This document shows positions 4,109 to 21,718 of a stretch of DNA of 40,300 nucleotides, piece after piece (positions within the stretch are counted from its first letter, which is position 1; each line of letters starts with the position of its first letter). A model generated the notes under the pieces. It was not told the origin of the DNA. It did not search any database and saw nothing but the letters and a program-made list of their open reading frames with translations. The translations under genes and the position numbers were made by a program. The stretch covers positions 1 to 40,300 of the forward strand of contig VFZY01000034.1 in the NCBI GenBank assembly GCA_016870915.1, in the 5' to 3' direction. Source of the stretch: Acidobacteriota bacterium. Lineage in GTDB: Bacteria > Acidobacteriota > Terriglobia > Bryobacterales > Bryobacteraceae.

Positions 4109-5665
4109 CTAACGGGACCTGAACCCTCCACCCAGCAGCCCTTCAAGCGCGCCCGTCAGCGCCCGCTTGCTCACTGGCTTGGTGAGTTGCACCGCCCCGC
4201 GGGGACGGGCGATTTTCTGGTCGGACGAGGAGACCACAACCACCCGGGGACCTGGATCAGCGTTTTCCGCTGCCGGAATGATCGCATCGATCACGCCTTC
4301 AACCGAGACCGGGTCCAAATCGAGCAGCAGAAGCTCCGGGTGTAACTCGCCGGTGAGCTTTCGCGCCCGTGCCGGCGAGGATGTGGCCACCACATCCACA
4401 CCCGCGGGACGAAGATATTCCGCAAGCAGTTCGGCCTCGCGGTATACCCCTTCCACCAGCACCGCCAGCGGCCGCGGCTCCGTGTCCATCACACCTTTGG
4501 CGGTGAACAGGAACGAACTTCCCAACCCCAGCCCGCTCTCCACCCAAAGATCGCCGCCCTGCTGGATCACCATCTGCGCCGCGATCGGGAGTCCCAATCC
4601 GGTGCCCTCGGGCAACCCGTGCGTCGTGGCACCCACTTGAAAGAACTTCTCGAAAATCGCCGGCTGGTTCTCCGGAGCAATCCCAATCCCGGAATCCGTC
4701 ACCCGCACCAGGGCCACCTGCCCGCGCACCGCCGCCGCGATCTGAATGCGCCCGGATTCCCTGGTGAACTTGATCGCGTTCGAGATGAGGTTGATCAGAA
4801 TCTGCTTGAATCGCAACCGGTCGGCTTCAATCCAGGAACCGGCCGGCACGGCGGTCTCCACGCGCAGGTCCTTGGCGGAAATCTGCAACTCCCAGGCTGC
4901 CACCACCTCATCCACCACTTCCGGCAGGCTGAAGCGCTCAGGGCGGTACTCCATGCGCCCGGATTCGATCCTGCTGATGTCGAGCAGGTCATTGATAATC
5001 GCCAGAAGGTGGCCTGAGTCGTCGCGAATGTTCGTTACGAACCGCTTCTGCCGGTCGTTCAGCGGACCCTCCAGTTCCTCCGCCAGCAGATCCGCAAAGC
5101 CAATGATGGTGTGCAGTGGCGACCGCAATTCGTGGCTGACGCTGGACAAGAACTCGGTCTTCAGCCGGCTGGACCTTTCCACGTCGGCGTTGCGCTGCTC
5201 AAGCTGGCGATTCCTCTCCTCAAGCTCCGCCGTGAACTGCTCGCGCAACTGCCGCATCTGTTCGGATGCCCTACGGCGCTCCGTCACATCTCGGACAATG
5301 GCGATCGTCAGTTTCTCCCCGTCGCATTCCACCGAGCTGAGAGAAATCTCCACCGGCAGAAGATGACCGTCTTTCCGCACGCCTTCGAGTTCCATGCCCA
5401 GGCCCATCGGCCGGTTGATTGGCCGGTTGCGATATCCGGCGAGGTGCCCTTCGTGAGCACGGCGCGCGGGGGCTGGAACCAGCATTTCCACATTCGCGCC
5501 CAGCAGTTCATCACGGCTATACCCGAACATCGCGACCGCAGTCGCGTTGGCAAAAACAATCCTCCCGGCCGCGTCCACCTGGAAAATCGCGTCGGGCGCC
5601 GCGTCCAGCAGTGCAACCATGCGGGCGGACTTACCCTCTGCACCTGGTGCCATGGATTCACTCAT
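4109..5665 (-). CDS. PAS sensor histidine kinase with C-terminal degenerate receiver domain
   Basis: A protein of 518 residues with no membrane segment, so probably cytoplasmic. It has a PAS domain (about 15-130), a short coiled coil (about 132-168), HisKA with H178 in SVSHELRSP, and HATPase with the N box NLISNAIKF (292-300), DSGIGI and GTGLGLP. A receiver-like fold follows at about 400-512. That last domain keeps D449 and the Lys of TKP (K496), but the usual acidic pair is replaced by E405-G406, so normal Mg-dependent phosphorylation is doubtful. It is the first gene of a two-gene minus-strand operon with the NtrC-like regulator, and is divergent from the Oar-like receptor gene across 80 bp. 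The start ATG 5665 has a GGAAG about 11 nt upstream; ATG 5653 is an alternative. Confidence 0.92.
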   Translation of the reverse strand: MSESMAPGAEGKSARMVALLDAAPDAIFQVDAAGRIVFANATAVAMFGYSRDELLGANVEMLVPAPARRAHEGHLAGYRNRPINRPMGLGMELEGVRKDGHLLPVEISLSSVECDGEKLTIAIVRDVTERRRASEQMRQLREQFTAELEERNRQLEQRNADVERSSRLKTEFLSSVSHELRSPLHTIIGFADLLAEELEGPLNDRQKRFVTNIRDDSGHLLAIINDLLDISRIESGRMEYRPERFSLPEVVDEVVAAWELQISAKDLRVETAVPAGSWIEADRLRFKQILINLISNAIKFTRESGRIQIAAAVRGQVALVRVTDSGIGIAPENQPAIFEKFFQVGATTHGLPEGTGLGLPIAAQMVIQQGGDLWVESGLGLGSSFLFTAKGVMDTEPRPLAVLVEGVYREAELLAEYLRPAGVDVVATSSPARARKLTGELHPELLLLDLDPVSVEGVIDAIIPAAENADPGPRVVVVSSSDQKIARPRGAVQLTKPVSKRALTGALEGLLGGGFRSR

Positions 5666-5745
5666 TGCAATTGAGCTTCCACTCTACCGCTCCGGGGAGT
5701 ATGGCTGACAGTTCGCTTGCTGGGTTACCCTGGAAGCAACTGGAC

Positions 5746-8532
5746 ATGAAGGCCACGGAGGTATTCTGCGCCCTGGCGGCCGCCTGCGCCGCCTTCGCTC
5801 AACCCGTGCCGCGCCCGGCCCCCCGACCCTCCACACCCGCCGGTGAACTGGCCAAGGCCGCGGACGAGTTTCGCACGGTGACGCGCAATCTGGGCCTGCG
5901 CCCGGACTCCCCGGCCACAGTTCGCACCACCAACATCAGCGGACCACGCTGGCACGGCCGGCTTTTCCACAACATTCGCAACAACTCCTTTGACGCCGTG
6001 CCGCATGAAGTCACCCAGCGAGGAGGCCAGCGCGGCCTTCTCCGCCGGAATCAGTTCGGATTCAACGCAAGCGGACCCTTGCCCTTCAAGGTCTTGAGCC
6101 AACCCACCTTCCTGACCGTTACCTTTGAAGGCATGCGCGAAAAGGCCGGCCGCGCGGATCTTCGCACAATCCCCACGGCACTGGAACGGACGGGAGACTG
6201 GTCGCGGGTGGTCGATCAGGCGGGCCGGCCGCTCCCGATCTTCGATCCCGCCTCAACGGCACCGAACCCGGCTTTTGACGCCGCGCGGCCGGTCACGGCT
6301 TCGAACCTTCAATTCAACCGAGCTCCCTTCCCGGGGAACATCATTCCCAGGCAGCAGCTCGATCCGCGGGCCCAGCAACTCCTGCGTCACTACCCGGCCC
6401 CGAACGCCGACGCCGGCCCGTTTGACCGCAACAACTTCTTCGCGTTCAACCCGGAGGTGAATTCCGCCAACGGCGTCATCCTCCGCGCCGATCAGCCCCT
6501 TACCAACCGGCACCGCCTGGGCTTCCACCTGAACTATTCGAACGGCCAGGACGGAGTGGCCGCCATCTTCAACACACCCGCCAACCCCAGTTCGGTGAGC
6601 CGCGACCGGCGCAACCGCGCGGGCACTCTGGAACACGTCTTCACCGTTTCGCCCCGCACGCTCAACACCGCCACCATCAGCGCCTCGTCCGATCAGTACC
6701 TCAACCGCCCCGAACTCGACGAATCGGGCAAGCCGTTCGGCAGCTACCGATTTCAGCCTTATCTCTCCATGGGACGCTCCTATCCCAACGCCCGCAACAT
6801 CCGCAACGTTTTCGCCGCCACCAACAGCCTGGGAACCCGGCGCGGCCGTCATCACTATCGCGTGATTGGCCAGCTGATCCGGGAACAGATCAACACGCTC
6901 TATCCTCAATACCCGGAGGGGCGTTTTCAATTCTCCGCCAACCTCACCAGCCTCCCGGGCATCGTCAATACCGGCCATGCTTTTGCCAGTTTCCTGCTGG
7001 GCGGCCCGGAGTACGCGGAACGCAGCATCGCGATTTCACCCTCCTATTTCCGCCGGTCCCGCTACTACTTTGGCCTGCGCGACCAGATCGAGTTGCGGAG
7101 CGGCCTTACGGTGAGCCTGGCTCTCAACATCGAAGGCGGCACCCCGCGTGTCGAGCGATACAACCGCCAGTCCACTATCTCCCTTTCCGCCATCAATCCG
7201 GTGAACGGCCTTCCCGGAGCCATGACCATCGCCGCGCACGACGGGAACGGCCGGGCGTTCCAGCCGACGGTCTGGAAGCCCGAGCCCTCGGCGTCTCTTG
7301 CCTGGAATCTTCTGGGCGACACCAAGAGCGTGCTGCGCGCCGGCTACTCACGGTCCTATTCGCCGCTGCCCATGTATTTCAGCCAGTGGGGCACCCAGGC
7401 GTTCAACGGCAACCCCACGTGGTATTCACAGAATCCGCAACTGGAGCCTGCCATCTGGCTGAACCGCGGCTTTCCGCCCCTGCAGCGCCCCTTCCCCGAC
7501 CTGCGTCCCGAATCCGCCAACGAAACCACGGCGGATCTTGCGGAGCCCCGCGGCCTGCAGCCCACCTATCAGTCCGCTTCGCTTTCCCTGGAACGCGAGT
7601 TGCCGGGCGCTATGCTGCTCACCATCGGGTGCGGACACCAGACCGGCCGCAACCTGTTTCTGAGCAATAGCGGATCGAACCCCAACCACATTCCCCCCTC
7701 CGCCCTTGTCCATCGCGACCGCCTGAATAGTGAAAGCTTCAAGCGCACTCTTCGGCCCTTCCCGCACTTTCAGCGTTTCGACGTCTACTCCTCATGGCCC
7801 GAAGGCCGGTACCAGCGCGATGCCGCGCAGCTTCGTCTGGAGAAGCGGACTTCAAACGGACTCTCGCTTGCCGCCTACTACGAGTTCTCAAAGCAGATGG
7901 ACAACTATTCCGGTCCATCCGGCGTGCAGGACTTTTCGAACCGCCAGAACGAATGGTCGCTCACCTCAAGCAATGCGCCCCATCGGGTTTCGCTGACGTA
8001 CCTCTATGAGCTGCCCTTCGGCGGCAATCGCGCCCTGTGGAATTACCAGGATTGGCGCCGGCATCTGGTGGACGGGTGGTCCGTGAGCGGGGCCACGTCG
8101 GTTGCGAGCGGCGAGCCCGTCGCGCTTCGCCCTCAGTTCAACAACACGGGCGGCATCATCGATGCGCTGAACGTAAACCCCGTGCCCGGGGCCGATCCGC
8201 ACGTTGCGAACCCTGGCCCGAATCGCTGGTTCAACCCCGCCGCATTCGTGCAGCCGCCCGATTTCACGCTTGGCGCGGCGTCGCGGACGCATCCTTCCCT
8301 GCGCATGCCCGGCGATCAGAACCACGATCTCTCGCTCAACAAACGGATCGGCCTGAGCGCCGAGCGCTCGATCGAGTTCACGGCCGTCGGCCTGAACTTC
8401 CTGAACCTTGCCAACTGGACGGACCCCGACACCACCATCGGCACCCTGAACGCGCCGAACGTCAACGCCGGCCGCATCATTGGGTCGCGCGGCGGGCGCG
8501 TCATTCAACTCGGACTGCGGTTTAGCTTCTGA
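5746..8532 (+). CDS. Oar-like TonB-dependent-receptor barrel protein lacking the usual N-terminal domains
   Basis: A protein of 928 residues with a signal peptide (MKATEVFCALAAACAAFA, cleavage near residue 18). After a short Pro-rich linker it enters the Oar-type pattern directly (WHGRLFHNIRNN, RRNQFGFNASGPLPF, FLTVTFEGMREKAGR), followed by long beta-barrel sequence ending in LGLRFSF, a typical outer-membrane terminal strand with final Phe. The carboxypeptidase-regulatory-like domain and most of the plug, present in the second Oar protein of this window, are missing. It may therefore be an outer-membrane barrel or surface protein that no longer works as a TonB-gated transporter. ATG 5746 follows TGGAAG by about 9 nt; ATG 5701 is in frame upstream. 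It is divergent from the kinase/NtrC pair, which may control it. Confidence 0.85.
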   Translation: MKATEVFCALAAACAAFAQPVPRPAPRPSTPAGELAKAADEFRTVTRNLGLRPDSPATVRTTNISGPRWHGRLFHNIRNNSFDAVPHEVTQRGGQRGLLRRNQFGFNASGPLPFKVLSQPTFLTVTFEGMREKAGRADLRTIPTALERTGDWSRVVDQAGRPLPIFDPASTAPNPAFDAARPVTASNLQFNRAPFPGNIIPRQQLDPRAQQLLRHYPAPNADAGPFDRNNFFAFNPEVNSANGVILRADQPLTNRHRLGFHLNYSNGQDGVAAIFNTPANPSSVSRDRRNRAGTLEHVFTVSPRTLNTATISASSDQYLNRPELDESGKPFGSYRFQPYLSMGRSYPNARNIRNVFAATNSLGTRRGRHHYRVIGQLIREQINTLYPQYPEGRFQFSANLTSLPGIVNTGHAFASFLLGGPEYAERSIAISPSYFRRSRYYFGLRDQIELRSGLTVSLALNIEGGTPRVERYNRQSTISLSAINPVNGLPGAMTIAAHDGNGRAFQPTVWKPEPSASLAWNLLGDTKSVLRAGYSRSYSPLPMYFSQWGTQAFNGNPTWYSQNPQLEPAIWLNRGFPPLQRPFPDLRPESANETTADLAEPRGLQPTYQSASLSLERELPGAMLLTIGCGHQTGRNLFLSNSGSNPNHIPPSALVHRDRLNSESFKRTLRPFPHFQRFDVYSSWPEGRYQRDAAQLRLEKRTSNGLSLAAYYEFSKQMDNYSGPSGVQDFSNRQNEWSLTSSNAPHRVSLTYLYELPFGGNRALWNYQDWRRHLVDGWSVSGATSVASGEPVALRPQFNNTGGIIDALNVNPVPGADPHVANPGPNRWFNPAAFVQPPDFTLGAASRTHPSLRMPGDQNHDLSLNKRIGLSAERSIEFTAVGLNFLNLANWTDPDTTIGTLNAPNVNAGRIIGSRGGRVIQLGLRFSF

Positions 8533-9476: not shown

Positions 9477-9510
9477 GGGCCTCGCTTCAGTACAAGCCTG
9501 GCTCAGGCCC
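9477..9510. terminator. Possible bidirectional hairpin between convergent genes
   Basis: GGGCCT (9477-9482) pairs with AGGCCC (9505-9510), with a further AGCC/GGCT pairing inside the loop. It sits between the VWA-like stop and the GntR-regulator stop and overlaps the latter. The stem is short and there is no T-run, so termination here is a weak suggestion. Confidence 0.25.
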
Positions 9511-10210
9511 CACCCAAATCCCGGCTTGACGACAAGATATGCGCCGCCATCGCCTGCCAGGCCTTCCCCGGGTCACGGGCCGCAATCGCACGCAGGATTC
9601 GCCCGTGCTCGGCGATCGACTTTCGGGCACGTTCCGGCGCCGGCCCCTGGGCCAGCGTCCGTGCGATCCACTCCTGTAAGTAGGCGCGCGTGGTGCTGAG
9701 CAGGCTCCTCAGGATGGAGTTATGGGTCGCCTGCGCCACCGCCTCGTGGAACAGGAGATCCTGTTCCAGGTACGCCGCCGGATCCGCCACCGCCGCCTTC
9801 ATCCCCTTGAGGGCCGCGGTCATGCGCGCGATATCTGCCGGTGACGCCTTCTCCGCCGCCAGCGACGCATTGCCCGATTCCAGCATCACGCGCGTCTCAA
9901 TGAGGTCCGCGGTCACCTTCGGGTCGAGCAGGAGACCCCATTGGAACACCCGCTGCGGATGCCGCCCACCGCCATCCAACACAAACGTGCCATCCCCGGC
10001 GCGAGCCTCCACCAGCCCCATCACCGCAAGCGATTTCAATGCCTCGCGCACCGAAGTCCGCCCCACGCCAAACTGGACACAAAGTTGTTTCTCCGCCGGC
10101 ATGCGGTCGCCGGGGCGCAGCGTTCCGCTGTCGATCAGCATCAGGATCTGGCGGACGATCCCGTCACTCAGCGAAGACCGCGGGACGGGCTTGAGCGCGG
10201 ATGGATTCAT
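9503..10210 (-). CDS. GntR-family transcriptional regulator, FadR/FCD subfamily
   Basis: A protein of 235 residues. The N-terminal winged helix (about 8-78) has the family pattern PAEKQLCVQFGVGRTSVREAL and a wing GDGTFV. The C-terminal all-helical FCD ligand domain (about 95-225) carries the usual metal or effector residues D151, H155, H202 and H224. Such regulators usually repress a neighbouring catabolic operon and release DNA when they bind a small organic acid. The gene is divergent from the corrinoid methyltransferase operon with only 52 bp between start codons, and two palindromes sit there. It is most likely the local regulator of that operon; the ligand cannot be read from the sequence. 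Confidence 0.92.
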   Translation of the reverse strand: MNPSALKPVPRSSLSDGIVRQILMLIDSGTLRPGDRMPAEKQLCVQFGVGRTSVREALKSLAVMGLVEARAGDGTFVLDGGGRHPQRVFQWGLLLDPKVTADLIETRVMLESGNASLAAEKASPADIARMTAALKGMKAAVADPAAYLEQDLLFHEAVAQATHNSILRSLLSTTRAYLQEWIARTLAQGPAPERARKSIAEHGRILRAIAARDPGKAWQAMAAHILSSSRDLGGA

Positions 10211-10221
10211 GGCGGGCGTGC

Positions 10222-10256
10222 TATCATCAGCTTGTCAGACAACCTGACAGGTGTCA
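10222..10256. promoter_or_regulatory. Divergent operator/promoter with two palindromes for the GntR regulator
   Basis: TTGTCAGACAA (10232-10242) fits the FadR-subfamily consensus TnGTnnnACnA exactly. Three bases later TGACAGGTGTCA (10245-10256) is a second palindrome with 5-bp arms. A TATCAT (10222-10227) could be the -10 box for the plus-strand operon, putting its transcription start inside the first palindrome. The AGGTG at 10249-10253, the probable ribosome binding site of the first operon gene, lies in the second. Binding would therefore block initiation. The site is seen directly; its use is inferred from its position and the family consensus. Confidence 0.65.
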
Positions 10257-10262
10257 AACAGC

Positions 10263-10898
10263 ATGGTGCACACGATGGCGCACACTCTCGACCTCGGCCG
10301 CCGCGTCGAACTGGTCTCAATGGATCCTCACGCCGGCGACATCTCCCTGGGGCTCTACCGCGAAGACTCGCCCGAAGGCCCCGGCTATCTCATCCACACC
10401 TATAGCGCCAACCCCGAAGCCGCCCGCAGGGTGGAGTTCCTCACCCGCGCCGCTGAAGTTCTGGGCGGCGCCCGCGGCGCGCCCGGGCAGCGCTTCCGTT
10501 TTCCCTGCCAGACCGGCCATCAGACCGCGGCCCGGCGCCTCTTTCTGGAAGCAGCCAAGCTGCCCACCGGCGACGAACTTCAACCCCGCCCGCTCACGGT
10601 TCACGACCGGAAGTCCGGCCAGGACCTCACCGTGGAACCGCTCGGCGCCGGCCGCTACCGCGTCACCACCAGCACCGCCGATGAAGCCCGCTGCGCCGTG
10701 CTGGCCAACGGACTCCGCAAGCTGGCCGAAATGGATGCCACCGAAGGGCAGCCGGTGGTGGCCTTTCCCTGCGGGCAGGACCATCATGAACTGGTCGGCC
10801 TGCTTCTGCCGCGTGCCTTGAACGTGCGCGCCGCACTCCGCGAGGAGGAGTCCGCCCTGTCGCGCGGACAGCTCAGCGCGCCAAGTTCCCAGAAGTGA
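10263..10898 (+). CDS. Unrecognised protein made of two similar halves, first gene of corrinoid operon
   Basis: A protein of 211 residues with no family I recognise, no signal peptide and no membrane segment. Two halves look like repeats of each other. Residues about 15-95 (RVELVSMDP, then SANPEAARRVEFLTRAAEVLG, then FRFPCQTGH) match about 103-185 (PLTVHDRKS, then STADEARCAVLANGLRKLAEM, then VAFPCGQDHH). Both halves carry an FPC motif with His residues nearby (C82 and C170), 88 residues apart. The start is taken as ATG 10263 because AGGTG lies 9 nt upstream; GTG 10251 and ATG 10275 are alternatives. Its place in front of the methyltransferase genes suggests a role in substrate binding, methyl transfer or corrinoid handling. 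That is a guess from context. Confidence 0.75.
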   Translation: MVHTMAHTLDLGRRVELVSMDPHAGDISLGLYREDSPEGPGYLIHTYSANPEAARRVEFLTRAAEVLGGARGAPGQRFRFPCQTGHQTAARRLFLEAAKLPTGDELQPRPLTVHDRKSGQDLTVEPLGAGRYRVTTSTADEARCAVLANGLRKLAEMDATEGQPVVAFPCGQDHHELVGLLLPRALNVRAALREEESALSRGQLSAPSSQK

Positions 10899-10908
10899 GA
10901 GAGGCAAC

Positions 10909-11967
10909 GTGGAAACTCAAGGTCATCTCCAGCCCGGTCCCATGAACAGCCGCCAGCGCGTGCTCGCCGCGCTCAACCGGCAGCCCGTCGATCGCACGCC
11001 GGTCTGCAACCCCACCTCCGTGGCCACCGTGGAACTCATGGACCTGGTGGATGCGCCGTTTCCGAACGCGAACCGGGAGCCGGAACGCATGGCGCGCCTG
11101 GCCGCCACCAGTTACACCGAACTGGGCTTTGACTCCATCATGCCGGTGTTCAGCATCATCCAGGAGTCCTCCGCGCTCGGCTGCAAGATCCAGTGGGAGC
11201 AGAAGGACAACTGGCCCACCGTGCGCATGCGGGAACCCATCTGGCAGACGGCGGATGATATCCGCGTGCCCGATGACTTCCTGGATCATCCGGACACCCG
11301 CTGCGTCACCGAGGCCATTCGCCTTCTGCGCCGCGAGTATGGCAACGAAGTGGCCATCATTGGCAAGACGATGGGGCCCTGGTCGCTGGGCTATCACTGC
11401 TTCGGCGTCGAGCCCTTTCTCCTTCTATCTCTCGACAACCCCGGACAGACCAAGCTCTGCCTTGATCGAATGAAGGAGGCCACCATCCGCTTCGGGCTGG
11501 CGCAGATTGAAGCGGGCGCCGATGCCCTTACGCTGCCCGACCACGCCACCGGCGATCTTGTCAGCGCCCAATACTACGCCCGCTACCTGCGCGACCTCCA
11601 CATCGAGTTCGCCGAGCGGCTCAAGGTGCCCATCATTCTCCACATCTGCGGCCGCACCGTCGACCGGATGCCGTACATCGCCGAAACCGGGATGGCCGCC
11701 TTTCACTACGATTCGAAGAACGGCCCCGAGGAGTCGATGGCCATCTGCCGCGATCGCGTCGCGCTGGTGGGCAATATCAACAACCCGGAAACGCTGTTTT
11801 CAAAAGGCCCGGAAGCGGTGCGCGCCGAGGTGGTCCGCAACCTCGAGGCCGGCGTCAACCTGGTGGGCCCCGAGTGCGCCATCCCGCTGCAGACGGCGAT
11901 TGAAAACCTGAAGGAGATTCCGCGCGCCGTGCGTGACTGGCACAACGATCGCGCGCGGATTAACTAG
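10909..11967 (+). CDS. UroD-like (MtaA/CmuA-type) corrinoid methyltransferase
   Basis: A protein of 352 residues of the uroporphyrinogen-decarboxylase fold family. It starts with the usual NSRQRVLAALNRQPVDRTPV and carries the zinc site of the methyltransferase branch: H245 and C247 in LHICGRT, and C323 in GPECAI. The zinc thiolate site separates it from true haem-pathway UroD. Such enzymes move a methyl group between a substrate and the cobalt of a corrinoid protein, which is encoded by the next gene. The start is a GTG with GAGAGG 4 nt upstream; ATG 10942 is an alternative and fits the family start better. The gene sits 10 nt after the two-repeat protein and 1 nt before the corrinoid gene. 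The substrate is unknown. Confidence 0.88.
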   Translation: METQGHLQPGPMNSRQRVLAALNRQPVDRTPVCNPTSVATVELMDLVDAPFPNANREPERMARLAATSYTELGFDSIMPVFSIIQESSALGCKIQWEQKDNWPTVRMREPIWQTADDIRVPDDFLDHPDTRCVTEAIRLLRREYGNEVAIIGKTMGPWSLGYHCFGVEPFLLLSLDNPGQTKLCLDRMKEATIRFGLAQIEAGADALTLPDHATGDLVSAQYYARYLRDLHIEFAERLKVPIILHICGRTVDRMPYIAETGMAAFHYDSKNGPEESMAICRDRVALVGNINNPETLFSKGPEAVRAEVVRNLEAGVNLVGPECAIPLQTAIENLKEIPRAVRDWHNDRARIN

Positions 11968-11968
11968 C

Positions 11969-12715
11969 ATGCCCGAACTGCACGACATCGCAAACGAGTT
12001 CATCCGCCAGGAAATCGACGAGTTCATTGAACGCCCCGATGAGCGTGCCCGCATCATCGGCCTCTTCGCCAAGGCATCGGAACAAATGCAGGCCATCGCC
12101 GCCGCGCTCATCGATGGCGATCACGAAACCGTCGACCGGCTCACCGCCGAGGCCATTGCCGCCGGTGTGCACGCGATGGAAGTGATGGATGACGGCCTCA
12201 TCGCGGGCATGGCCATTGTGGGCATCAAGTTCCGGCAGAACTTCATCTTCGTCCCCGAGGTTCTCTCCTGCGCCCGCGCCATGAAGGCCGGCATGGTTCA
12301 CATCGAGCCCATCCTTTCCGCCGCCGGAATCGAGAAGCTGGGCAAGGTGATCATGGGGACCGTCAAAGGCGACCTCCACGATATCGGCAAGAACCTTTGC
12401 ATCATGATGCTCCGCGGCGCCGGCTTTGAAGTGATCGATCTCGGCGTTGACACCTCGCAGGACCGCTTCATTGACGCCATCGAGGAACACGGCGCCAACA
12501 TTCTGGGCATGTCCGCGCTGCTGACCACCACCATGCCCAACATGGGCAAGACGATTGAAGCGTTCATCGACGCCGGACTCCGCGACGATATCCGCATCAT
12601 GGTGGGCGGAGCGCCGGTGACCCAGGATTTCGCCGACGAGATGGGCGCCGACGGCTATGGCAAGGACGCTCTGGCCTGTGTCTCGCTGGCCAAGCAGTTC
12701 GCTGGAAAGGCGTAG
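11969..12715 (+). CDS. Methyltransferase corrinoid (cobalamin-binding) protein
   Basis: A protein of 248 residues with an N-terminal helical cap (about 1-120, AMEVMDDGLIAGMAIVGIKF typical) and a Rossmann B12-binding domain (about 122-245). D135, H137 and G140 form the DxHxxG motif in GDLHDIGKN, so His replaces dimethylbenzimidazole as the lower cobalt ligand. SALLTTTM and GGAPVTQDFA are the other family signatures. It carries the methyl group between the UroD-like enzyme and the pterin-binding enzyme of the same operon. The start lies 1 nt after the preceding stop without its own good ribosome site, so translation is probably coupled. The N-terminal extension of about 30 residues (FIRQEIDEFIERPDE) is somewhat longer than in many MtaC/MtbC proteins. 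Confidence 0.93.
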   Translation: MPELHDIANEFIRQEIDEFIERPDERARIIGLFAKASEQMQAIAAALIDGDHETVDRLTAEAIAAGVHAMEVMDDGLIAGMAIVGIKFRQNFIFVPEVLSCARAMKAGMVHIEPILSAAGIEKLGKVIMGTVKGDLHDIGKNLCIMMLRGAGFEVIDLGVDTSQDRFIDAIEEHGANILGMSALLTTTMPNMGKTIEAFIDAGLRDDIRIMVGGAPVTQDFADEMGADGYGKDALACVSLAKQFAGKA

Positions 12716-12719
12716 ACCG

Positions 12720-12968
12720 GTGCCGGATCAACCGCCCATCACTCAGGCTGACTATCAGGAGCGGGTCGACCGGCTGATGGAGATCCTGGGCGGCATCATC
12801 TCCCATTCGGCCCGCCAAACCGCCTCCCGCTGCCCTTACAAGAACCGCCACAACTGCTGCACGGCCCAGTTCGGCTGCCGCAACAAGCGGAAACCGGAGG
12901 CCCCGGGCGAACTGCCCGTCTGCGCCGGCGATGACCGCATCGACTACCGCCCCGCCTGGCAAGCCTAG
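12720..12968 (+). CDS. Small Cys-rich protein of the corrinoid operon
   Basis: An 82-residue protein starting at GTG 12720, with GGAAAGG about 10 nt upstream. An amphipathic helix (about 9-35) is followed by a compact Cys cluster: C38, C46, C47, C53 and C68, in the order RCPYKNRHNCCTAQFGCRNK. The spacing suggests a metal or iron-sulfur site, but I know no family to assign. It lies between the corrinoid protein and its putative reactivase, 4 nt after the former. It may support low-potential electron delivery to cobalt or bind the corrinoid complex. Its amber stop is in the same frame as the reactivase that follows. Confidence 0.7.
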   Translation: MPDQPPITQADYQERVDRLMEILGGIISHSARQTASRCPYKNRHNCCTAQFGCRNKRKPEAPGELPVCAGDDRIDYRPAWQA

Positions 12969-12974
12969 TGTGCC

Positions 12975-14528
12975 ATGTCCACGCTTTTCGATCAGGCCGA
13001 TGCCCGCAACCTTCGCGTCCCCACAAGCTGCGGGCGGAGCGGCCTCTGCCACGAATGCATTGTCGAGGTCACCGGCGGCGCGGACAATCTTGAACCCCGC
13101 ACATCCGCCGAGGCCTTTCTTCGCGGCGAGTACCGCCTGGCTTGCCAGGCCCGTCTTCGTGATGAGAACACGGCGGTAGCGTTCGCGCCCCTTGTCCGCC
13201 GCCCGCGCATTCTCACCTCTTCGCCCGCCGTACCCACGGCAATCGATCCCCCCGGACGCGAAGGTCTCGGCCTGGCTCTCGATCTGGGCACCACCACCGT
13301 TGTCTTCGAACTGATCGAACTGAGCACTGGCGCACCGCGCCTCGCCGCGTCGTTCGAGAATCCACAACGCTTCGGGGGCAGCGATGTCATGCATCGCATC
13401 TCCTACGACGCGCGCCAGCCCGGTGAACTGGCCCGTGCCTTCCGCGCCGCGCTGAACCAGCGCCTCAAGGAGGCCTGCGCGACTCTGAACATCGATCGCC
13501 AACAGATCCGCGAAATGGTGGTTGCCGGTAACTCCACCATGCGCGATCTGTTCTTCGGGCTCGACGTTCAGTCCATTGGCCAGCGCCCCTACAAGTCGGT
13601 CACTGAACACGAGATGCTCGCCGGGCGCCGGGCCACCACGGCGCTGGAAGACCGCGCGCACGCGCTTGGCGTGCTCATCCATCCGCAAGCGCTGGTGTAT
13701 GGCGTCCCCCTCATTGCCAGTCATGTCGGGGGCGATGCCGCGGCCTGCCTTGCCGCCATCGGCTGGGATCACGCTCAGCCCGTGATGCTCGTCGATATCG
13801 GCACCAACACGGAGGTCATCGCAGGGTACGGCGATGAGTGGATCTGCGCCTCCTGCCCGGCCGGTCCGGCCTTTGAAGGCGGTCTGGTCCGCTATGGCAT
13901 GCCCGGGGCGGATGGCGCCATCGAACGCATTCGCCGCGTGGGCGAAGGCTGGGCCATCGATACCATCGGCAATGTCTCGCCGGAAGGTATCTGCGGCTCC
14001 GGTCTCATCGACCTGCTCGCCGAACTGAGCCGCCACCACCTGATGACCCCGAAGGGCGTCTTCCCCAATCGGGCCCGCGAAGTGGTCATCCATGCCGCCT
14101 CCGGCATCGGCCTTTCGCGCGAGGACGCCAGCAACCTGGCCCAGGCCAAGGCCGCCAACTATTGCGGCCAGTTCATTGTCCTGCGCACCGCGGGCATCGC
14201 CCCGGAAGATGTCTCCACGCTCTATCTGGCGGGCGGCTTCGCGCATCACATCGATACCGCCAACGCCGTCGAGATCGGTTTCCTCGCGCCCGTTCCCCTG
14301 GAACGCGTCGTGAAGCTGGGCAATGCCGCGCTGGCCGGAGCCCGCTGCCTGCTGCTTTCTCACGCGCTGCGGCGCCGCCTGGAAGCATTCGTTCCCCGCA
14401 TCCGCCACGTCGAACTGGAAACCACGCCGGACTTTTTCGAGCTCTTCGTCGAGGGCTGCCAGTTCAAACCATTTCCCAAGGAGTTTGTTGCATGCGCCCA
14501 GCCGGCCTCAACCGCGATTTCATCCTGA
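12975..14528 (+). CDS. RACo-like ATP-dependent corrinoid activating protein with N-terminal [2Fe-2S] domain
   Basis: A protein of 517 residues. C19, C25, C28 and C57 form a plant-type [2Fe-2S] pattern (TSCGRSGLCHEC and YRLACQ). An ASKHA-type ATPase part follows, with LGLALDLGTTTVVFEL (about 97), MVVAGNSTM, HVGGDAAAC, MLVDIGTNTEV, GPAFEGGL and LAGGFAHHID. It should reduce cobalt that has slipped to the inactive Co(II) state, using ATP-driven binding to the corrinoid protein. The ferredoxin part is short at its start: the two beta strands that usually precede the cluster loop are missing. The ribosome site is poor and the preceding amber stop is in frame only two codons upstream. The end overlaps the next gene by 37 nt. 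Confidence 0.9.
   Translation: MSTLFDQADARNLRVPTSCGRSGLCHECIVEVTGGADNLEPRTSAEAFLRGEYRLACQARLRDENTAVAFAPLVRRPRILTSSPAVPTAIDPPGREGLGLALDLGTTTVVFELIELSTGAPRLAASFENPQRFGGSDVMHRISYDARQPGELARAFRAALNQRLKEACATLNIDRQQIREMVVAGNSTMRDLFFGLDVQSIGQRPYKSVTEHEMLAGRRATTALEDRAHALGVLIHPQALVYGVPLIASHVGGDAAACLAAIGWDHAQPVMLVDIGTNTEVIAGYGDEWICASCPAGPAFEGGLVRYGMPGADGAIERIRRVGEGWAIDTIGNVSPEGICGSGLIDLLAELSRHHLMTPKGVFPNRAREVVIHAASGIGLSREDASNLAQAKAANYCGQFIVLRTAGIAPEDVSTLYLAGGFAHHIDTANAVEIGFLAPVPLERVVKLGNAALAGARCLLLSHALRRRLEAFVPRIRHVELETTPDFFELFVEGCQFKPFPKEFVACAQPASTAISS
14478..14483 (+). promoter_or_regulatory. Strong ribosome binding site inside the reactivase gene
   Basis: AAGGAG lies 8 nt before ATG 14492 and within the last codons of the RACo-like gene. 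It fixes the start of the pterin-binding methyltransferase and shows that the two genes overlap by 37 nt. Confidence 0.7.
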
Positions 14529-15526
14529 TCGGCGAGAACATCCATACCACGCGCGTGCTGCTGCGCAATGGCCGCCGTGTGGCCCCCTCGCCCGATGGTG
14601 TCGAAAGCGTCCTCTTCGAAAACAGCGCCGGGGAGACCGGTTACCTTCCCATTCCGGAGGAGTTGAAGAGGCGCCAGGACTACGAGGAGGGCCGCGTCAA
14701 GCACGTCATGATCGCGGTGCTCGGAGGCATGCGCGGCGACCCGCTGTCGCTCGATTATCTGCGCGTCATGGCCGCGCGCCAGATCGCCCGCGGCGCCGGG
14801 TATCTCGATCTCAACGTCGATGAGATCTCCCACCGCCTGCCCGAACAGATCGCCGCCATCCAGTGGCTGGTGCGCACCATTGAGGAGTTCTCCAGCGTGC
14901 CGCTCGCCATCGACTCATCGAATGTGGACATCATCCTTGCCGGGCTTGATGCCTGCCAGGGGCGCGCCGGCCGGCCGCTGCTCAACTCCGCCTCGCTGGA
15001 ACGCAGCGACGCGCTCGACGCCGCCGCCCGCCGCGGCATTCCGGTGATGGTCACCGCGGCCGGAGCCAGCGGCATGCCATCCAATGCCGCCGACCGGGTG
15101 AACAACGCCTCGCAAATGATCGACGCCGCGCTCGCCCGCGGGCTCGACGCCGCCTCCATCTTCGTCGACCCTCTCATGTTCCCAATCTCCGTCGACAGCG
15201 AATTCGGCAATCACTGCCTGGACGCCATCCGGGAGTTGCGCGCCCGCTACGGACCGGCCATCCACATCTCCGGCGGCCTCAGCAATGTCTCCTTTGGCTT
15301 GCCTGCCCGCAAGCTCATCAACGAGGTGTTCATCCGCCTAGCCGTCGAAGCCGGCGCCGATTCCGGTATCGTGGATCCTGTGGCCAATGACCTCCATGCG
15401 GTCTTCCAGGCGGACCGTTCCGCCCGCCCGCAACAGTTGGCCGAAGAGATGCTTCTGGGAAGGGACCGTGGCTGCAAGAACTTCCTTCGCGCCTACCGCA
15501 AGGGTGAACTCAGCGCTACTCTTTAG
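14492..15526 (+). CDS. Pterin-binding (DHPS-like) methyltetrahydrofolate:corrinoid methyltransferase
   Basis: A protein of 344 residues with the dihydropteroate-synthase-like TIM barrel of the AcsE/MtrH group. Signatures are ILIGENIHTTR at the start, GAGYLDLNVDE, PLAIDSSNVDIILAGL and PLLNSASLERSD, and a later IFVDPLMFPIS and ISGGLSNVSFGLP. It should accept the methyl group from the corrinoid protein onto tetrahydrofolate, or run the reverse reaction. The start ATG 14492 has an ideal Shine-Dalgarno site. It closes the set of methyl-transfer parts in this operon, although the peroxidase gene that follows overlaps its end by 23 nt and may be co-transcribed. Confidence 0.9.
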   Translation: MRPAGLNRDFILIGENIHTTRVLLRNGRRVAPSPDGVESVLFENSAGETGYLPIPEELKRRQDYEEGRVKHVMIAVLGGMRGDPLSLDYLRVMAARQIARGAGYLDLNVDEISHRLPEQIAAIQWLVRTIEEFSSVPLAIDSSNVDIILAGLDACQGRAGRPLLNSASLERSDALDAAARRGIPVMVTAAGASGMPSNAADRVNNASQMIDAALARGLDAASIFVDPLMFPISVDSEFGNHCLDAIRELRARYGPAIHISGGLSNVSFGLPARKLINEVFIRLAVEAGADSGIVDPVANDLHAVFQADRSARPQQLAEEMLLGRDRGCKNFLRAYRKGELSATL

Positions 15527-16424
15527 CGCCCTCGCCGGCGCCATGACCCTGGCCGCCCAGCCGGCGCCGCCGTTGGGTCTTGACGCCTTCATGCCCGGGC
15601 TCCACCTGCACCCGCTCACGCGCGAAAAGGTCACCCTGGGGCGCAAGCTTTTCTTCGATCAACGCCTGTCCCGCGACAACTCAATTGCGTGCTCCACCTG
15701 TCACGACCCGGCTTTTCAGTTCACGGACCGCCACCCCACCGCCCGAGGGATCGAAGGCCGCACGGGTGACCGCCGTACTCCGTCGCTTCTCAATCGCGGC
15801 TACGGCCTGTCGTTCTTCTGGGACGGCCGCGCCGCCACGCTCGAACAGCAGGTGCTCATGCCCATCGACAATCCCAAGGAGATGGATCTCGATGTGAATG
15901 AGGCCGCCCGGCGCACTGGCGTCTCCCGGGAGCAATTGGCCGAGGCCCTGGCGGCCTATGTCCGCACCATTCGTTCCGGCGGCTCCCCGTATGACAAATA
16001 CATTGCCGGCGATGCGAACGCCCTCAATCCCGCCGAACGCCGCGGCTTGGCGCTGTTTCGCGGCAGAGCTGGCTGCTCTGCCTGCCACATCGGCCCGAAC
16101 CTTACCGATGAGCGCTTCCACAACACCGGCATCGGCTCCGCGGAAGGCCGCTTTGCCGTGACCGGGCGCGAGTCCGACCGGGGTGCGTTCAAGACACCCA
16201 CGCTGCGCAACGCAGCCCTCCACCCGCCCTTCATGCACGATGGGAGTCTGGCCACCGTTGAAGCGGTGATCGACTTCTACGACAAAGGCGGCAACTCCAA
16301 TCCACGCCTGGACCCCGAGATGCTTCCTCTTCGCCTCACCGCCACCGAAAAGACCGATCTGGCGCTGTTTCTGCGCAGCCTGTCCGGCACCGTCGAGGAG
16401 GGCTGGGAGACCCCTCCCCGCTGA
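15504..16424 (+). CDS. Dihaem cytochrome c peroxidase (CcpA/MauG family)
   Basis: A periplasmic protein of 306 residues with a signal peptide (MNSALLFSALAGAMTLAAQ) and two haem sites: CSTCH (63-67) in the first half and CSACH (191-195) in the second. Family phrases are LGRKLFFDQRLSRD, FQFTDRHPTARG, PSLLNRGY, FFWDGRAATLEQQ, KTPTLRN and FMHDGSLATVEAVIDFYDKGG. It reduces hydrogen peroxide with electrons from small cytochromes, or modifies a partner protein as MauG does. GTG 15504 was chosen because it gives a clean signal peptide; it overlaps the methyltransferase end by 23 nt. An in-frame GTG at 15468 and an ATG at 15543 are alternatives. Confidence 0.9.
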   Translation: MNSALLFSALAGAMTLAAQPAPPLGLDAFMPGLHLHPLTREKVTLGRKLFFDQRLSRDNSIACSTCHDPAFQFTDRHPTARGIEGRTGDRRTPSLLNRGYGLSFFWDGRAATLEQQVLMPIDNPKEMDLDVNEAARRTGVSREQLAEALAAYVRTIRSGGSPYDKYIAGDANALNPAERRGLALFRGRAGCSACHIGPNLTDERFHNTGIGSAEGRFAVTGRESDRGAFKTPTLRNAALHPPFMHDGSLATVEAVIDFYDKGGNSNPRLDPEMLPLRLTATEKTDLALFLRSLSGTVEEGWETPPR

Positions 16425-17255: not shown

Positions 17256-17318
17256 ATCGTTCAGATAATGGGATAGTGGCGTCCCAGGAAATTCGTGTAT
17301 CCCGAAAGGCGATGGACT

Positions 17319-20171
17319 ATGGCAGTACACCTCGTTTGGCGGACCGGGCTCTTCACCTGGATCAGGCGCGCGGCCCCCGCAATCGCCGTGGGACTCGGCG
17401 GAGCCGCCCTGCTCACCACTGTTCTTACCGCGCAGAAGGCCCCCGCCACCGGCGCCGAAGTCCGCGCCATTCTTGAAAAGAAATGCTCTCAATGCCATAG
17501 CCAGGCCCTGCAGATGGGAGGCCTGGATCTCAGCACCCGCGAAGCGATGCTCAAGGGCGGCGCCAAGGGCCCGGCCATCGCCCCGGGTAACGCCGGCGCC
17601 AGCACCCTGATCCACCGCGTCACCGGCCGTGTCGCACCCAAGATGCCCATGGCGCCGCTGCCGCCTCTCACCGATGCCGAAGTAGCCGCTCTCACCGAAT
17701 GGATCAACGCCGGTGCCCACTGGGACCCCGCCGCGTCAGCCGCTCCCCAAGCCAAGACCGCCCCCACCCCGGCCGGCTACTCGAACGAACTCAGGGAACG
17801 CGCCTTCACCGAAACGGAGACCAAGTGGTGGGCTTTCCAGCCGCCCGTGCGCCGCACTCCGCCCGCCATGCGCGAGGAACGTTGGGCGCACAACCCCATC
17901 GATCAGTTCATCAAAGCCTCCCTCGACGCCAAGGGACTGAGGCCCGCGCCCAAGGCCGACCGCTCCACCCTCATCCGCCGCGCCACACTCGACCTCACGG
18001 GCCTGCTCCCTACGCCTGCCGAAGTTCAGGCTTTCGTCAGCGATCAATCGCCCGACGCTTACCGCAACCTCATCGAACGTCTCCTCGGCTCCTCCCACTA
18101 TGGCGAGCGTTGGGGCCGCAACTGGCTGGATGTTGTCCGCTACGCCGACAGCTCCGGTTTTGAGCATGATCGCGATCTCGCTACCGCCTGGCGCTTCCGC
18201 GACTACGTCATTCGCTCCTTCAACAACGACAAGCCCTTCAACCGCTTCCTCGTCGAACACCTGGCCGGCGATGAACTTCCCGGCGACGACCTGGATGCCA
18301 AGATCGCCACCGCCTTCTACCGCATTGGCCCCCGCGTGCGCTTCCGCGAGAAGGACAACCCGTTCTACCGCTACGAGTACCTGGACGACATCATCCGCAC
18401 CACCTTCCAGGGTTTCATGGGCATCTCAGTCCACTGCGCACGCTGCCACGATCACAAATTCGACCCCATCACCCGGGCCGACTACTACCGTTCCATGGGC
18501 ATGTTCTTCGGCTTCGTCAACTATGACCACCCATTGATGCCTGAAGACAAAGTTCGTGAATGGGAACGCAAGACCTCCGAAGTGATGCGGGCCGCTCTCC
18601 CGTTGAAGCAGGAAGTGGCGAAGATTGAAGCCCCATACCGCAAGGCCCTGTTCGACGCCGGTCTCGCCAAGCTTCCCGATGAGGTTCAGGCGGCCATCCG
18701 AGTGCCCGCCGAGATGCGCACGCCCGGCCAAAAGCTCCTTGCCGCGCAGTTCGAGCGTCCCGCCACCGGTGACGGCGACCCCAACTTCATGGGCGACGAC
18801 CCCGTCCTTGCCCAGATCACCACCGCCGGCCAGCGCGCCCCCAACCTCATTGAAGGGCCGCGTACTGGCGGCGCTATGCGGCGCGGCCCCGAACTCGTCA
18901 AGGTGAACGAAGCCGACCACGCCCGTCGCGCTGCTCTTCTTGCCCGCATCGCCGAGATCGAAAAGCAGATGCCACCCACGCCACACGCCGTGGAAGGCGT
19001 GCGCGATGGCGATTACCGTCTGGCCCCGGACGGTCCCGGCGACGAGCCCTCGCCCGGCAAGACTTACCGCCCCGATTACCCGGACCTCGGCAAAGCCTAT
19101 CTCCCCGAACCAGGCTCGAAGTACGAGGTGCCGTGGGTCCGTTTCGGCGCCAACGGTCTGGTTGTCGAAGACGACAACAAAGCTCCCGTGGTCCCCGCCG
19201 GTTACCTCCGCGTGCTCACCAAGGACCGGCAACTCATGCTTGCCAAGCCATTGCGGCCTGATTACACGAGCGGCGGCCGCCGCTGGGCGCTCGCTGAATT
19301 CATCGCCTCCCCGGACAACCCGCTCACATCGCGGGTTATCGTCAACCGTGTCTGGTATTGGCACTTCGGCCGCGGCATTGTCGCCACACCGGGCAACCTC
19401 GGCAAGATGGGCACGGCGCCGTCCCACCCCGAACTTCTCGATTGGCTGGCCACGGAGTTCATCCGCCAGGGCTGGAGCATCAAGCAGATCCATCGCCTGA
19501 TCATGAACTCGGAGACCTACCAGCAGGCCTCCGCCCACTACGATTCCGAAAGCGCCAACAAGGACCCGGACAACATTCACCTCTGGCGATTCCCGGTGCG
19601 GCGCCTTGAAGCCGAGGCCATCCGCGACGTTATCCTCTCGGCCAGCGGCAAGCTCAACCTTGAAGCGGGCGGCCCCCCGTTCTTCCCCTCCATCCCGCCC
19701 AGCGTGCGCGAAGGTTACCGCCAGGGCAAGTGGCTGCTCACCAAGGAAGAGCCCGCCACCTGGCGCCGCGGCATCTATTCGTATTGGAAGCGCGGCATGA
19801 AGTACCCCATGTTTGAGGTGCATGATCAGCCGGACCAGAACGTCACCGCCGAAAAGCGTAACATCACCACCGTCCCCACGCAGGCGCTCACGCTGCTCAA
19901 CAATGAGTTCGTGCTGATCCAGGCCAGACACCTGGCCGAGCGCGTCGTCCGCGATTCGGCCGGCGCCACGGATGAGGACCGCATCCGGGCCCTCTACCGC
20001 ATCGCGCTGAGCCGCGATCCGAACCCGCGTGAACTCGAACGCCAGGCGGCTTTTCTGGCCGCCCAGCGCGGCTTCCAGGCCACGCAATCCCGCCCTGACC
20101 CGGCCCTCGCGGCCCTCACGGACCTCGCGCACGTCATGCTGAACGCCAACGAGTTCGTCTACATCAACTGA
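17319..20171 (+). CDS. PSD1-type cytochrome with DUF1549 and DUF1553 domains
   Basis: A protein of 950 residues. A Sec or membrane-anchor segment (about 16-37) comes first, then a planctomycete-type cytochrome c domain with CSQCH (56-60) and a possible Met ligand in KMPMAPLPPL, then DUF1549 (about 165-380: NPIDQFIKASLDAKGL, RRATLDLTGLLPTP, HYGERWGRNWLDVVRYADS) and DUF1553 at the C-terminal part (FIASPDNPLTSRVIVNRVWYWHFGRG). Such proteins occur mainly in Planctomycetes, Verrucomicrobia and Acidobacteria, nearly always next to DUF1501 proteins. They are thought to act in the periplasm on polymers, but no reaction is established. ATG 17319 follows GAAAGG by 9 nt. It is the first gene of a long plus-strand series. 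Confidence 0.92.
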   Translation: MAVHLVWRTGLFTWIRRAAPAIAVGLGGAALLTTVLTAQKAPATGAEVRAILEKKCSQCHSQALQMGGLDLSTREAMLKGGAKGPAIAPGNAGASTLIHRVTGRVAPKMPMAPLPPLTDAEVAALTEWINAGAHWDPAASAAPQAKTAPTPAGYSNELRERAFTETETKWWAFQPPVRRTPPAMREERWAHNPIDQFIKASLDAKGLRPAPKADRSTLIRRATLDLTGLLPTPAEVQAFVSDQSPDAYRNLIERLLGSSHYGERWGRNWLDVVRYADSSGFEHDRDLATAWRFRDYVIRSFNNDKPFNRFLVEHLAGDELPGDDLDAKIATAFYRIGPRVRFREKDNPFYRYEYLDDIIRTTFQGFMGISVHCARCHDHKFDPITRADYYRSMGMFFGFVNYDHPLMPEDKVREWERKTSEVMRAALPLKQEVAKIEAPYRKALFDAGLAKLPDEVQAAIRVPAEMRTPGQKLLAAQFERPATGDGDPNFMGDDPVLAQITTAGQRAPNLIEGPRTGGAMRRGPELVKVNEADHARRAALLARIAEIEKQMPPTPHAVEGVRDGDYRLAPDGPGDEPSPGKTYRPDYPDLGKAYLPEPGSKYEVPWVRFGANGLVVEDDNKAPVVPAGYLRVLTKDRQLMLAKPLRPDYTSGGRRWALAEFIASPDNPLTSRVIVNRVWYWHFGRGIVATPGNLGKMGTAPSHPELLDWLATEFIRQGWSIKQIHRLIMNSETYQQASAHYDSESANKDPDNIHLWRFPVRRLEAEAIRDVILSASGKLNLEAGGPPFFPSIPPSVREGYRQGKWLLTKEEPATWRRGIYSYWKRGMKYPMFEVHDQPDQNVTAEKRNITTVPTQALTLLNNEFVLIQARHLAERVVRDSAGATDEDRIRALYRIALSRDPNPRELERQAAFLAAQRGFQATQSRPDPALAALTDLAHVMLNANEFVYIN

Positions 20172-20191
20172 CCGCACCCAGGGGATTTACC

Positions 20192-21718
20192 ATGACACCG
20201 CTCTGCGACAATCGCGAATCGAACCGGCTGGAAGGCCACCGCCAGGGCGGCCGCCGCTTCATATCCCGCCGCGACTTCTGGTTCAACGCCGGCATGGGCC
20301 TGGGCGGCCTCGCCCTCGTCGATCTCCTGAGCCGTGACAATCTTCTCGCCGCCCCGCCGCCCACCACAGCCGGCCAGCCCGCCTGCGGCGGACAGCCCAT
20401 TCAGGATTCGCCCTACCTCGCCAAGAAGCCGCACTTCAAGCCCCGCGCCAAGCAGGTGATTCACCTGTTCATGAGCGGCGGCGTCAGCCAGGTGGATACC
20501 TTCGACTACAAGCCGGATCTCTGGAAGTACCACGGCGTCGCCCTGGAAGGAAAAGGCGAAATCCGCGTGCGCCAGGGCTATCCCGGCCCCCTCATGAAGA
20601 GCCCCTTCGAGTTCAAGCAGTACGGCCAGTCCGGCTCCTGGGTGTCCAGCCTCTTCCCCAACCTCGCCACGATCGTTGACGATCTCGCCTTCATCCACTC
20701 AGCCGTCGGCAAGTCCAACGATCACGTGCTTTCGCACTATGAGTGGAACACCGGCTCCATCCTCATGGGCTTCCCCAGCGTCGGCGCCTGGGTCACCTAC
20801 GGTCTCGGCAGTGAAAACGGCAACCTCCCCTCCTACGTCGTCATCTACGACCGCCGTGGAGGCCCCTTCAGCGGCCCCACCAACTGGCACGCCGGCTTCC
20901 TCCCCGCCTCCTACCAGGGCACCGTTTTCCGCTCTGTCGGCGACCCCATCCTCGACCTCTCCGCCCCGCCCCAGCACATGTCCGCCGCCGAGGAGCGCCG
21001 CCGTCTCGACCAGCTCAACTGGATGAATCAGAACCACGCCGAACAGCACCCCGGCGTCTCTGACCTGTCGGCCCGCATCGCCTCCTACGAACTCGCCTAC
21101 CGCATGCAGTCCTGCGCGCCCGAAGCAGTCGACCTGTCAAGCGAAAGCGATGAGACCAAGGCCCTCTACGGCCTTGATAACCCGGTCACCGAACCCTTCG
21201 GCCGCCAGTGCATCCTGGCCCGGCGCATGATCGAACGCGGGGTCCGCTTCGTCCAGCTCTACTCGGGCTCCATCGTCAACCAGAACATCGATACCTGGGA
21301 TGCTCACTCCAGTATCAAGGACAACCACACCATGCACGCCGCCGAGGTCGACAAGCCCATCACGGGACTGATCACGGACCTCAAACGCCGTGGCCTGCTC
21401 GATGAAACCGCCGTCCTCTGGCAATCCGAGTTCGGCCGCATGCCCATCTCCCAGCGCGCCCTGGGCCGCGATCACAACCCCGGCTGCCAGACCCTCTGGA
21501 TGTGCGGTGCCGGAATCCAGGGCGGCCAGCACATCGGCGCAAGCGACGAGGTCGGCTACAAAGCCGCGGACCAGATCGTCTGGAACCACGATGTCCACGC
21601 CACCCTTCTCCACCTGCTTGGCATGGACCACAAACGCCTCACCTACTACTTCAACGGCCGCCACATGCGTCTCACCGACGTCCACGGGGAACTCATCCCG
21701 CAACTGGTTAAGGCGTAA
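20192..21718 (+). CDS. DUF1501 protein, Tat-exported
   Basis: A protein of 508 residues with a Tat signal (SRRDFWFNAGMGLGGLALVDLL, about 25-46) and the alkaline-phosphatase/sulfatase-like DUF1501 fold. Signatures are VIHLFMSGGVSQVDTFDYKP, HSAVGKSNDH, RRMIERGVRFVQLYSG-type text, WDAHSSIKDNH, LWQSEFGRMP, GRDHNP and a C-terminal NGRHMRLTD. The Asp, His and Asn sites resemble metal-dependent hydrolases, but no substrate is known for the family. ATG 20192 has AGGGG 8 nt upstream. It follows the PSD1 gene by 20 nt, the standard pairing, so the two probably act together in the periplasm. Confidence 0.92.
   Translation: MTPLCDNRESNRLEGHRQGGRRFISRRDFWFNAGMGLGGLALVDLLSRDNLLAAPPPTTAGQPACGGQPIQDSPYLAKKPHFKPRAKQVIHLFMSGGVSQVDTFDYKPDLWKYHGVALEGKGEIRVRQGYPGPLMKSPFEFKQYGQSGSWVSSLFPNLATIVDDLAFIHSAVGKSNDHVLSHYEWNTGSILMGFPSVGAWVTYGLGSENGNLPSYVVIYDRRGGPFSGPTNWHAGFLPASYQGTVFRSVGDPILDLSAPPQHMSAAEERRRLDQLNWMNQNHAEQHPGVSDLSARIASYELAYRMQSCAPEAVDLSSESDETKALYGLDNPVTEPFGRQCILARRMIERGVRFVQLYSGSIVNQNIDTWDAHSSIKDNHTMHAAEVDKPITGLITDLKRRGLLDETAVLWQSEFGRMPISQRALGRDHNPGCQTLWMCGAGIQGGQHIGASDEVGYKAADQIVWNHDVHATLLHLLGMDHKRLTYYFNGRHMRLTDVHGELIPQLVKA

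Follow-up and report, generated by a model that had tools for sequence, protein, structure and literature searches.

Gene X, the first gene of a corrinoid methyltransferase operon in an Acidobacteriota bacterium (family Bryobacteraceae), encodes a new protein family that is tied to one type of corrinoid methyltransferase and is accompanied by a second unclassified partner, ORF103. The window, a stretch of 40,300 nucleotides (GenBank assembly GCA_016870915.1, contig VFZY01000034.1, positions 1 to 40,300), encodes together at 10942-15526 all four parts with which corrinoid methyltransferase systems are described in the accounts consulted, namely two methyltransferases (MT I and MT II), a corrinoid protein, and an activase. 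X is almost certainly a dedicated component of this corrinoid methyl-transfer system. The features of the operon and its upstream region are as follows.

9503 to 10210, minus strand: GntR/FCD regulator (Pfam), divergent from X
10232 to 10242, no strand assigned: palindrome TTGTCAGACAA, probable GntR operator, between the GntR gene and X
10275 to 10898, plus strand: gene X, two-repeat protein of 207 aa (residues are numbered from the ATG at 10263)
10296 to 10568, plus strand: repeat 1 of X, about residues 12-102, with FPC-x3-H at C82/H86
10581 to 10850, plus strand: repeat 2 of X, about residues 107-196, with FPC-x3-H at C170/H174
10942 to 11967, plus strand: UroD/MtaA-family methyltransferase (UroD) with His-Cys-Cys zinc ligands (LHICGR ... 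GPECAIP), start taken from homologues
11969 to 12715, plus strand: corrinoid protein with cap and B12-binding domains, start judged from homologues
12717 to 12968, plus strand: ORF103, unclassified, about 80 aa with four conserved Cys, exact start uncertain
12975 to 14528, plus strand: RACo-type corrinoid reductive activase with Fer2, RACo middle, and C-terminal domains
14492 to 15526, plus strand: MeTr, of the pterin-binding methyl-H4folate:corrinoid methyltransferase family, inferred start

A preliminary description of gene X had placed it at 10263-10898 and outside known families. The open reading frame is present in the window at those positions, but the start did not stand: the in-frame ATG at 10263 is probably 12 bases too early, because many homologues begin at the position that corresponds to the ATG at 10275 (MAHTLDLG). 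The family status proved correct. Neither Pfam nor NCBIfam returned a match for X itself at E values up to 1, and searches up to E 10 with 10 members of alignment A1 against Pfam (best E 0.089) and with the 20 members of alignment A3 against NCBIfam (best E 0.013) returned isolated, insignificant matches. Nothing significant was found in PHROGs (best E 0.084 for the A3 members, 0.14 for X itself), nor among PDB sequences in profile searches with the X family, where the best match (E 0.012) was an ankyrin-repeat chain. An ankyrin-repeat identity was rejected, the PDB matches being short and restricted to the surroundings of H-x-x-L-V-x-L-L. An assignment to DUF1638 (PF07796) was likewise rejected, with no PF07796 match for X (to E 1) or for 10 A1 members (to E 10) and an hhalign probability of 0.2%, as was homology between X and ORF103, by profile comparison. 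Neither X nor ORF103 was described in the titles and abstract openings among the matches listed from the open-licence PMC literature.

X is a true internal duplication, far beyond chance. When alignment A3 was split, half 1 and half 2 aligned over 69 columns in hhalign (probability 97.5%, E 5e-12, score 64.9), compared to a best score of 20.6 among 100 column-shuffled versions of half 2. The duplicated halves of the preliminary description are thereby confirmed, as are the two helices it had matched to one another, both of which are aligned, and its pairing of FPCQTGH with FPCGQDHH at a distance of 88 residues, which is the spacing of C82 and C170. Both motifs take the form C-x3-H, and the Cys/His site that had been noted in each half is invariant: D21, C82, H86, D115, C170, and H174 are each kept in 20/20 homologues, along with R56 (20/20) and, in most, R143 (17/20). 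In an alignment of individual repeats (26 rows from 13 of the 20 X proteins) the Asp, Cys, and His are invariant, and one Arg and two Leu nearly so. The pairing of D21 with D115 is held less firmly than that of the two C-x3-H motifs; it derives from the 26-row MAFFT alignment, both Asp lie outside the columns aligned by hhalign, and in a smaller alignment the two stand three columns apart.

Folding repeat 2 with repeat 1 supplied as extra alignment rows gave a confident single-repeat model (pLDDT 84.5, pTM 0.73) with a beta-beta-beta-alpha-beta-alpha order, in which the Cys lies in a loop behind the last strand and the His immediately ahead of the last helix. A full-length model built from two alignment rows (window and L008) was unusable (pLDDT 39). 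Compared against the PDB with Foldseek, the single-repeat model had 293 matches at E ≤10, none of them at 0.001 (best E 0.85), while with VIA-align 2 it reached Z ≥2 with 197 of 997 chains and Z ≥5 with none (best Z 4.3). A likeness to histidine-triad proteins in the latter comparison (Z 4.1–4.2) was set aside, as an unrelated transaminase ties with them. The two repeats probably pack as a pseudo-dimer, and each Asp/Cys/His set probably forms a site for a metal (Zn) or for a metal plus a thiol.

Homologues of X span two phyla, that of the window and that of a metagenome-assembled genome (MAG) recorded as Thermoleophilia. A profile search found X in 13 of 257 genomes of the window's order. X was also found in 4/38 genomes of another class of the window's phylum, the one to which G381 belongs, in 3/249 genomes from the same class as the Thermoleophilia MAG, and in 1/346 of that MAG's phylum. 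Matches were also returned by six of 61 genomes comprising the window's own and its relatives, and by six of 396 in a phylum-wide sample; one match in each set (G059, E 7.8e-4, and G297, E 3.8e-4, respectively) was a single-sequence match without support from the family and repeat profiles on the stretches concerned and was dropped as chance, as was a second place in G000 (E 0.10) on the same grounds. Phyla beyond those two were covered solely by a short exact-peptide scan of genome contigs, which yielded one X relative, that of the Thermoleophilia MAG (L008), among 210 candidate stretches. X was found neither in plasmids (E up to 0.1) nor in viral contigs. Alignment A3 holds X from 20 genomes, the window's and 19 others with 29–56% identity to it. 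The protein is under purifying selection (dN/dS 0.10–0.26, five X pairs), at values above those of UroD (0.03–0.13, four pairs) in each of the four pairs compared, and identity to the L019 protein is 34% for X versus 66% for UroD.

The neighbourhood of X was counted with tblastn of the window proteins against all 20 X loci, and it agrees with the preliminary placement of X in a corrinoid operon. UroD lies directly downstream of X in 19/19 testable loci (the contig of L020 ends at X), and the corrinoid protein and ORF103 accompany X in 16/16; L009, L020, L022, and L040 end before these two genes, which in G003 are on another contig (L075). RACo is beside X in 14 of 16 testable loci, being absent from stretches L010 and L011. 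MeTr is part of the locus in 10 of 14, the window's included, and absent from L010, L011, L012, and L047, while L048 and L049 end in RACo and fall outside this count. X is therefore retained where RACo or MeTr is locally absent, and among testable loci it was never seen without UroD and the corrinoid protein. In L019 and L021, from a distant family, the order is X-UroD-MeTr-Corr-ORF103-RACo, with X-UroD and Corr-ORF103-RACo each staying together. Genome-wide, an orthologous corrinoid protein occurs in 13 of the 257 genomes of the order, exactly the 13 that have X. In the 12 besides the window's genome it is 72–80% identical to the window protein, and the next-best relative reaches 52%. Corrinoid relatives at E 1e-40 occur in 101 of the 257, and the 88 genomes that hold only more distant ones are without X. 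ORF103 has no Pfam match at E 0.01 and carries the pattern RCPYKNR...CTA.FGCRN ... C.GDD.LDYR.AW, with four Cys kept in 17/17 sequences; where a locus has both the corrinoid protein and RACo, ORF103 is placed between them, and it may be a small Fe-S or Zn protein that partners the activase.

The palindrome upstream of X is the probable operator of the divergent GntR regulator. An exact TTGTC[A/T]GACAA lies 30–72 bases upstream of X in 10/10 loci of the window's family, all with a divergent GntR gene, and was not found within 220 bases upstream in the other 10 X loci, even allowing two mismatches. Within the window TTGTCAGACAA is the sole exact match, and allowing one mismatch gives 2 matches versus 0.72 expected by chance. 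X would thus be the first gene of a probably regulated operon, because of the operator and the divergent regulator. Three Thermoleophilia-class loci have GTTAACAGTTAAC or a one-base variant at the corresponding place, read by eye, just upstream of X (L050 near 10257, L040 near 1190, L041 near 8189), and a more distant GntR relative is located near X in the same three. In L046 (10503-12885), FAA-hydrolase-type and aldehyde dehydrogenase genes lie behind GntR, a possible hint to the metabolite that is sensed.

Several other genes surround these operons. In the window, a di-haem cytochrome c peroxidase gene (15387-16424) is situated right behind MeTr, a large outer-membrane beta-barrel gene occupies 5419-8532, and a PSCyt/DUF1549/DUF1553 and DUF1501 pair occupies 17295-21718. 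A gene of the XdhC/CoxI family is near X in 4/4 distant-family loci (L021:10164-11102, L019:7665-8558, and relatives in L020 and L022); the family call is by Pfam on L021 only, and the gene is divergent from X in the two loci with strands listed. MTHFR genes flank the operon at L041:2122-3786, L050:4409-5971, and L019:14996-16324, with a DUF5981 C-terminal domain in L041 and L050.

Among solved proteins, the window UroD is nearest to MtaA (4ay7, E 3.7e-50); it passes the NF004889 model (247.9 against a cut-off of 244) and falls just below the cut-off of the mtaA_cmuA model (232.6 against 235.4). Its H-x-C and second C align with those of MtaA 4ay7, and each of the 16 X-linked UroDs with coverage of the two regions retains the His-Cys-Cys set. 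According to the consulted part of PMC10418091, zinc ligation separates the S/Se from the O methyltransferases of the UroD superfamily, with His-Cys-Cys marking S-methyltransferases and one or both Cys being replaced, by carboxylate or non-coordinating residues, in O-methyltransferases. The ligands of the X-linked UroDs therefore predict a methyl-sulfur or methyl-selenium donor over an aromatic methyl ether, and such a compound is most likely the methyl donor. An aromatic O-demethylase of the MtvB/OdmB/VdmB type was first thought likely; the retention of both Cys in the zinc site argues against it. Methyl flow would run from donor to H4folate, an acceptor pool suggested by the presence of MeTr and by the MTHFR genes in L041, L050, and L019, and corrinoid-dependent demethylation is a plausible activity for the system because MeTr is present in most testable loci and MTHFR genes in some. 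UroD relatives at E <1e-90 occur in 17 of the 257 genomes of the order, four of which (G037, G774, G019, and G796) are without X. These four orphan UroDs are 63–73% identical, with an identical zinc motif that retains His-Cys-Cys (L068:3595-4629, L069:6690-7748, L070:3-1388, L071:2220-3230), so a need for X may not be universal in this UroD subfamily. No relatives of the corrinoid protein, RACo, or MeTr were found on the orphan stretches, three of the four contigs being short (4.5–12 kb), and a UroD tree with outgroups that were too distant did not place the orphans or order the gain or loss of X.

Known systems share parts of this arrangement, as far as the sections of the cited papers that were consulted describe them. 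The Type 1 mlp clusters of MtaA-like proteins (Kountz and Balskus) have the same His-Cys-Cys zinc ligands as the X-linked UroDs, but encode at least Mlp2 and Mlp3 together, whereas the window operon has one UroD-family gene (PMC10418091). Further, the Type 1 clusters described lack an H4folate methyltransferase, unlike most testable X loci, and no extra unclassified proteins such as X and ORF103 are described for them (PMC10418091); a word search of the available text of that paper gave no mention of hypothetical, unknown-function, DUF, or small proteins. The acetogen O-demethylases (MtvABC, Odm, Vdm, with activase) and archaeal Mto share with the X system a UroD-superfamily MT I, a corrinoid protein, and an activase, and likewise an MT II, of H4folate or H4MPT type (PMC8630106, PMC13222342). 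By the criterion of PMC10418091, the zinc ligation of UroD in these O-demethylases and Mto is of another class, and the components that the consulted text names for them do not include X or ORF103 (PMC8630106, PMC13222342). CmuA/CmuB, CdmBCA, and the mec cassette also have a UroD-superfamily MT I, a corrinoid protein, and an H4folate MT II in common with the X system, though CmuA is both MT I and corrinoid protein, and Cdm is without zinc (PMC13222342). For these chloromethane and dichloromethane systems no X-like component is mentioned in the parts seen of PMC13222342 and PMC9768040, a comparison that leaves aside the DUF proteins of mec. Plasmid relatives are distant, with UroD identities of only 24–27% (best 15 of 19 records) and MeTr identities of up to 32% (best 15 of 121 matches). 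DUF1638 is a small protein with an unsolved mechanism that is tied to corrinoid systems with a RamA- or RACo-like activase (PMC5764234, PMC12478193, as consulted), and it lies outside the X operon in genomes that have both. It is beside other corrinoid genes in L117-L119 (by coordinates) and L121 (by eye), the remaining places being L116, L120, and L122; in L121 it is on the contig of X, about 11 kb away.

The best explanation for X, one that we hold tentatively and at somewhat less than even confidence, is an accessory subunit on the UroD/corrinoid side. The methyl group would pass from its donor through the zinc-containing UroD to Co(I) of the corrinoid protein, and the methylated corrinoid protein would pass it to MeTr to form CH3-H4folate, with RACo restoring the corrinoid protein to Co(I). 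X would bind UroD or the complex of UroD and corrinoid protein, where it may assist in binding, orienting, or releasing the thiol leaving group, or in loading or guarding the UroD zinc site. A metal- or thiol-binding accessory, rather than an enzyme, is suggested because X follows UroD and the corrinoid protein and not RACo or MeTr, and because it evolves faster than UroD yet keeps its D, C, and H twice. A rate above that of UroD would be odd for a catalytic part, which counts against the best explanation, as do the four orphan UroDs in genomes without X; the required parts of known corrinoid systems, as listed in the accounts consulted, include no X-like protein. A more specific proposal, in which both repeats would carry a Zn-thiolate site (Asp/Cys/His) and would together take up or present the thiol, or perhaps the methyl group itself on Cys, between the donor and Zn-UroD, is quite unlikely. 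If it were true, X and the four-Cys ORF103, the latter as a redox or docking partner beside RACo, would make this a six-part corrinoid system for methyl-sulfur or methyl-selenium donors.

The strongest alternative, though rather unlikely, is a reactivation helper resembling DUF1638: X would partner RACo in DUF1638's place, keeping or restoring Co(I), with its Cys and His serving electron transfer or docking. In Phaeobacter, DUF1638 mutants resemble mutants of a RamA-like activase, and both genes co-occur across the alpha-Proteobacteria (PMC5764234; also PMC12478193; both as consulted); DUF1638 was not found in 14 of the 20 X genomes, the window's own included, and in the other six, four of its seven places adjoin other corrinoid genes and none is in the X operon. 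However, those six genomes have DUF1638 as well as X, X is kept where RACo is missing from the stretch (L010 and L011), the hhalign comparison with DUF1638 gives almost no probability of kinship, and it is ORF103, not X, that sits between the corrinoid protein and RACo, making ORF103 the better candidate for such a role. It is unlikely that X is instead a metallochaperone or insertase that loads zinc into UroD, or that puts the corrinoid into its carrier protein or protects it there. The paired Cys/His/Asp sites, the strict linkage to a His-Cys-Cys UroD and corrinoid protein, and a rate of evolution that is expected of a helper all fit this role, which is opposed by the four orphan UroDs, whose identical ligands occur in genomes without X.

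Two functions outside this accessory role were also weighed. The position of X as the first gene behind a probable GntR operator, together with its Cys/His sites, would suit a cytoplasmic protein outside the catalytic path that acts on the operon as a sensor or anti-regulator in response to thiol, metal, or redox state. Such a role is very unlikely: a divergent GntR gene is already beside X in the 10 same-family loci, X persists in loci where no GntR relative adjoins it (L010-L012 and L019-L022), and no DNA-binding or signalling domain is recognised in X. There is similarly little probability that X is itself the donor-specific methyltransferase (MT I), with UroD performing the second transfer as MtaA does for coenzyme M. 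The nearness of UroD to MtaA, its passing of NF004889, and the invariant Cys and His of X are consistent with that division of labour, but X is a small protein that matches none of the methyltransferase families and evolves faster than UroD, and the second transfer is already covered by MeTr where that gene is present. An accessory subunit beside UroD and the corrinoid protein remains the favoured, tentative explanation.

Within one lineage of corrinoid systems that spans two phyla, X and ORF103 are kept as strictly as UroD and the corrinoid protein. The pair offers a handle on accessory functions in corrinoid systems, DUF1638 being a further unsolved example, and the X operon is a candidate pathway for methyl-sulfur or methyl-selenium compounds.
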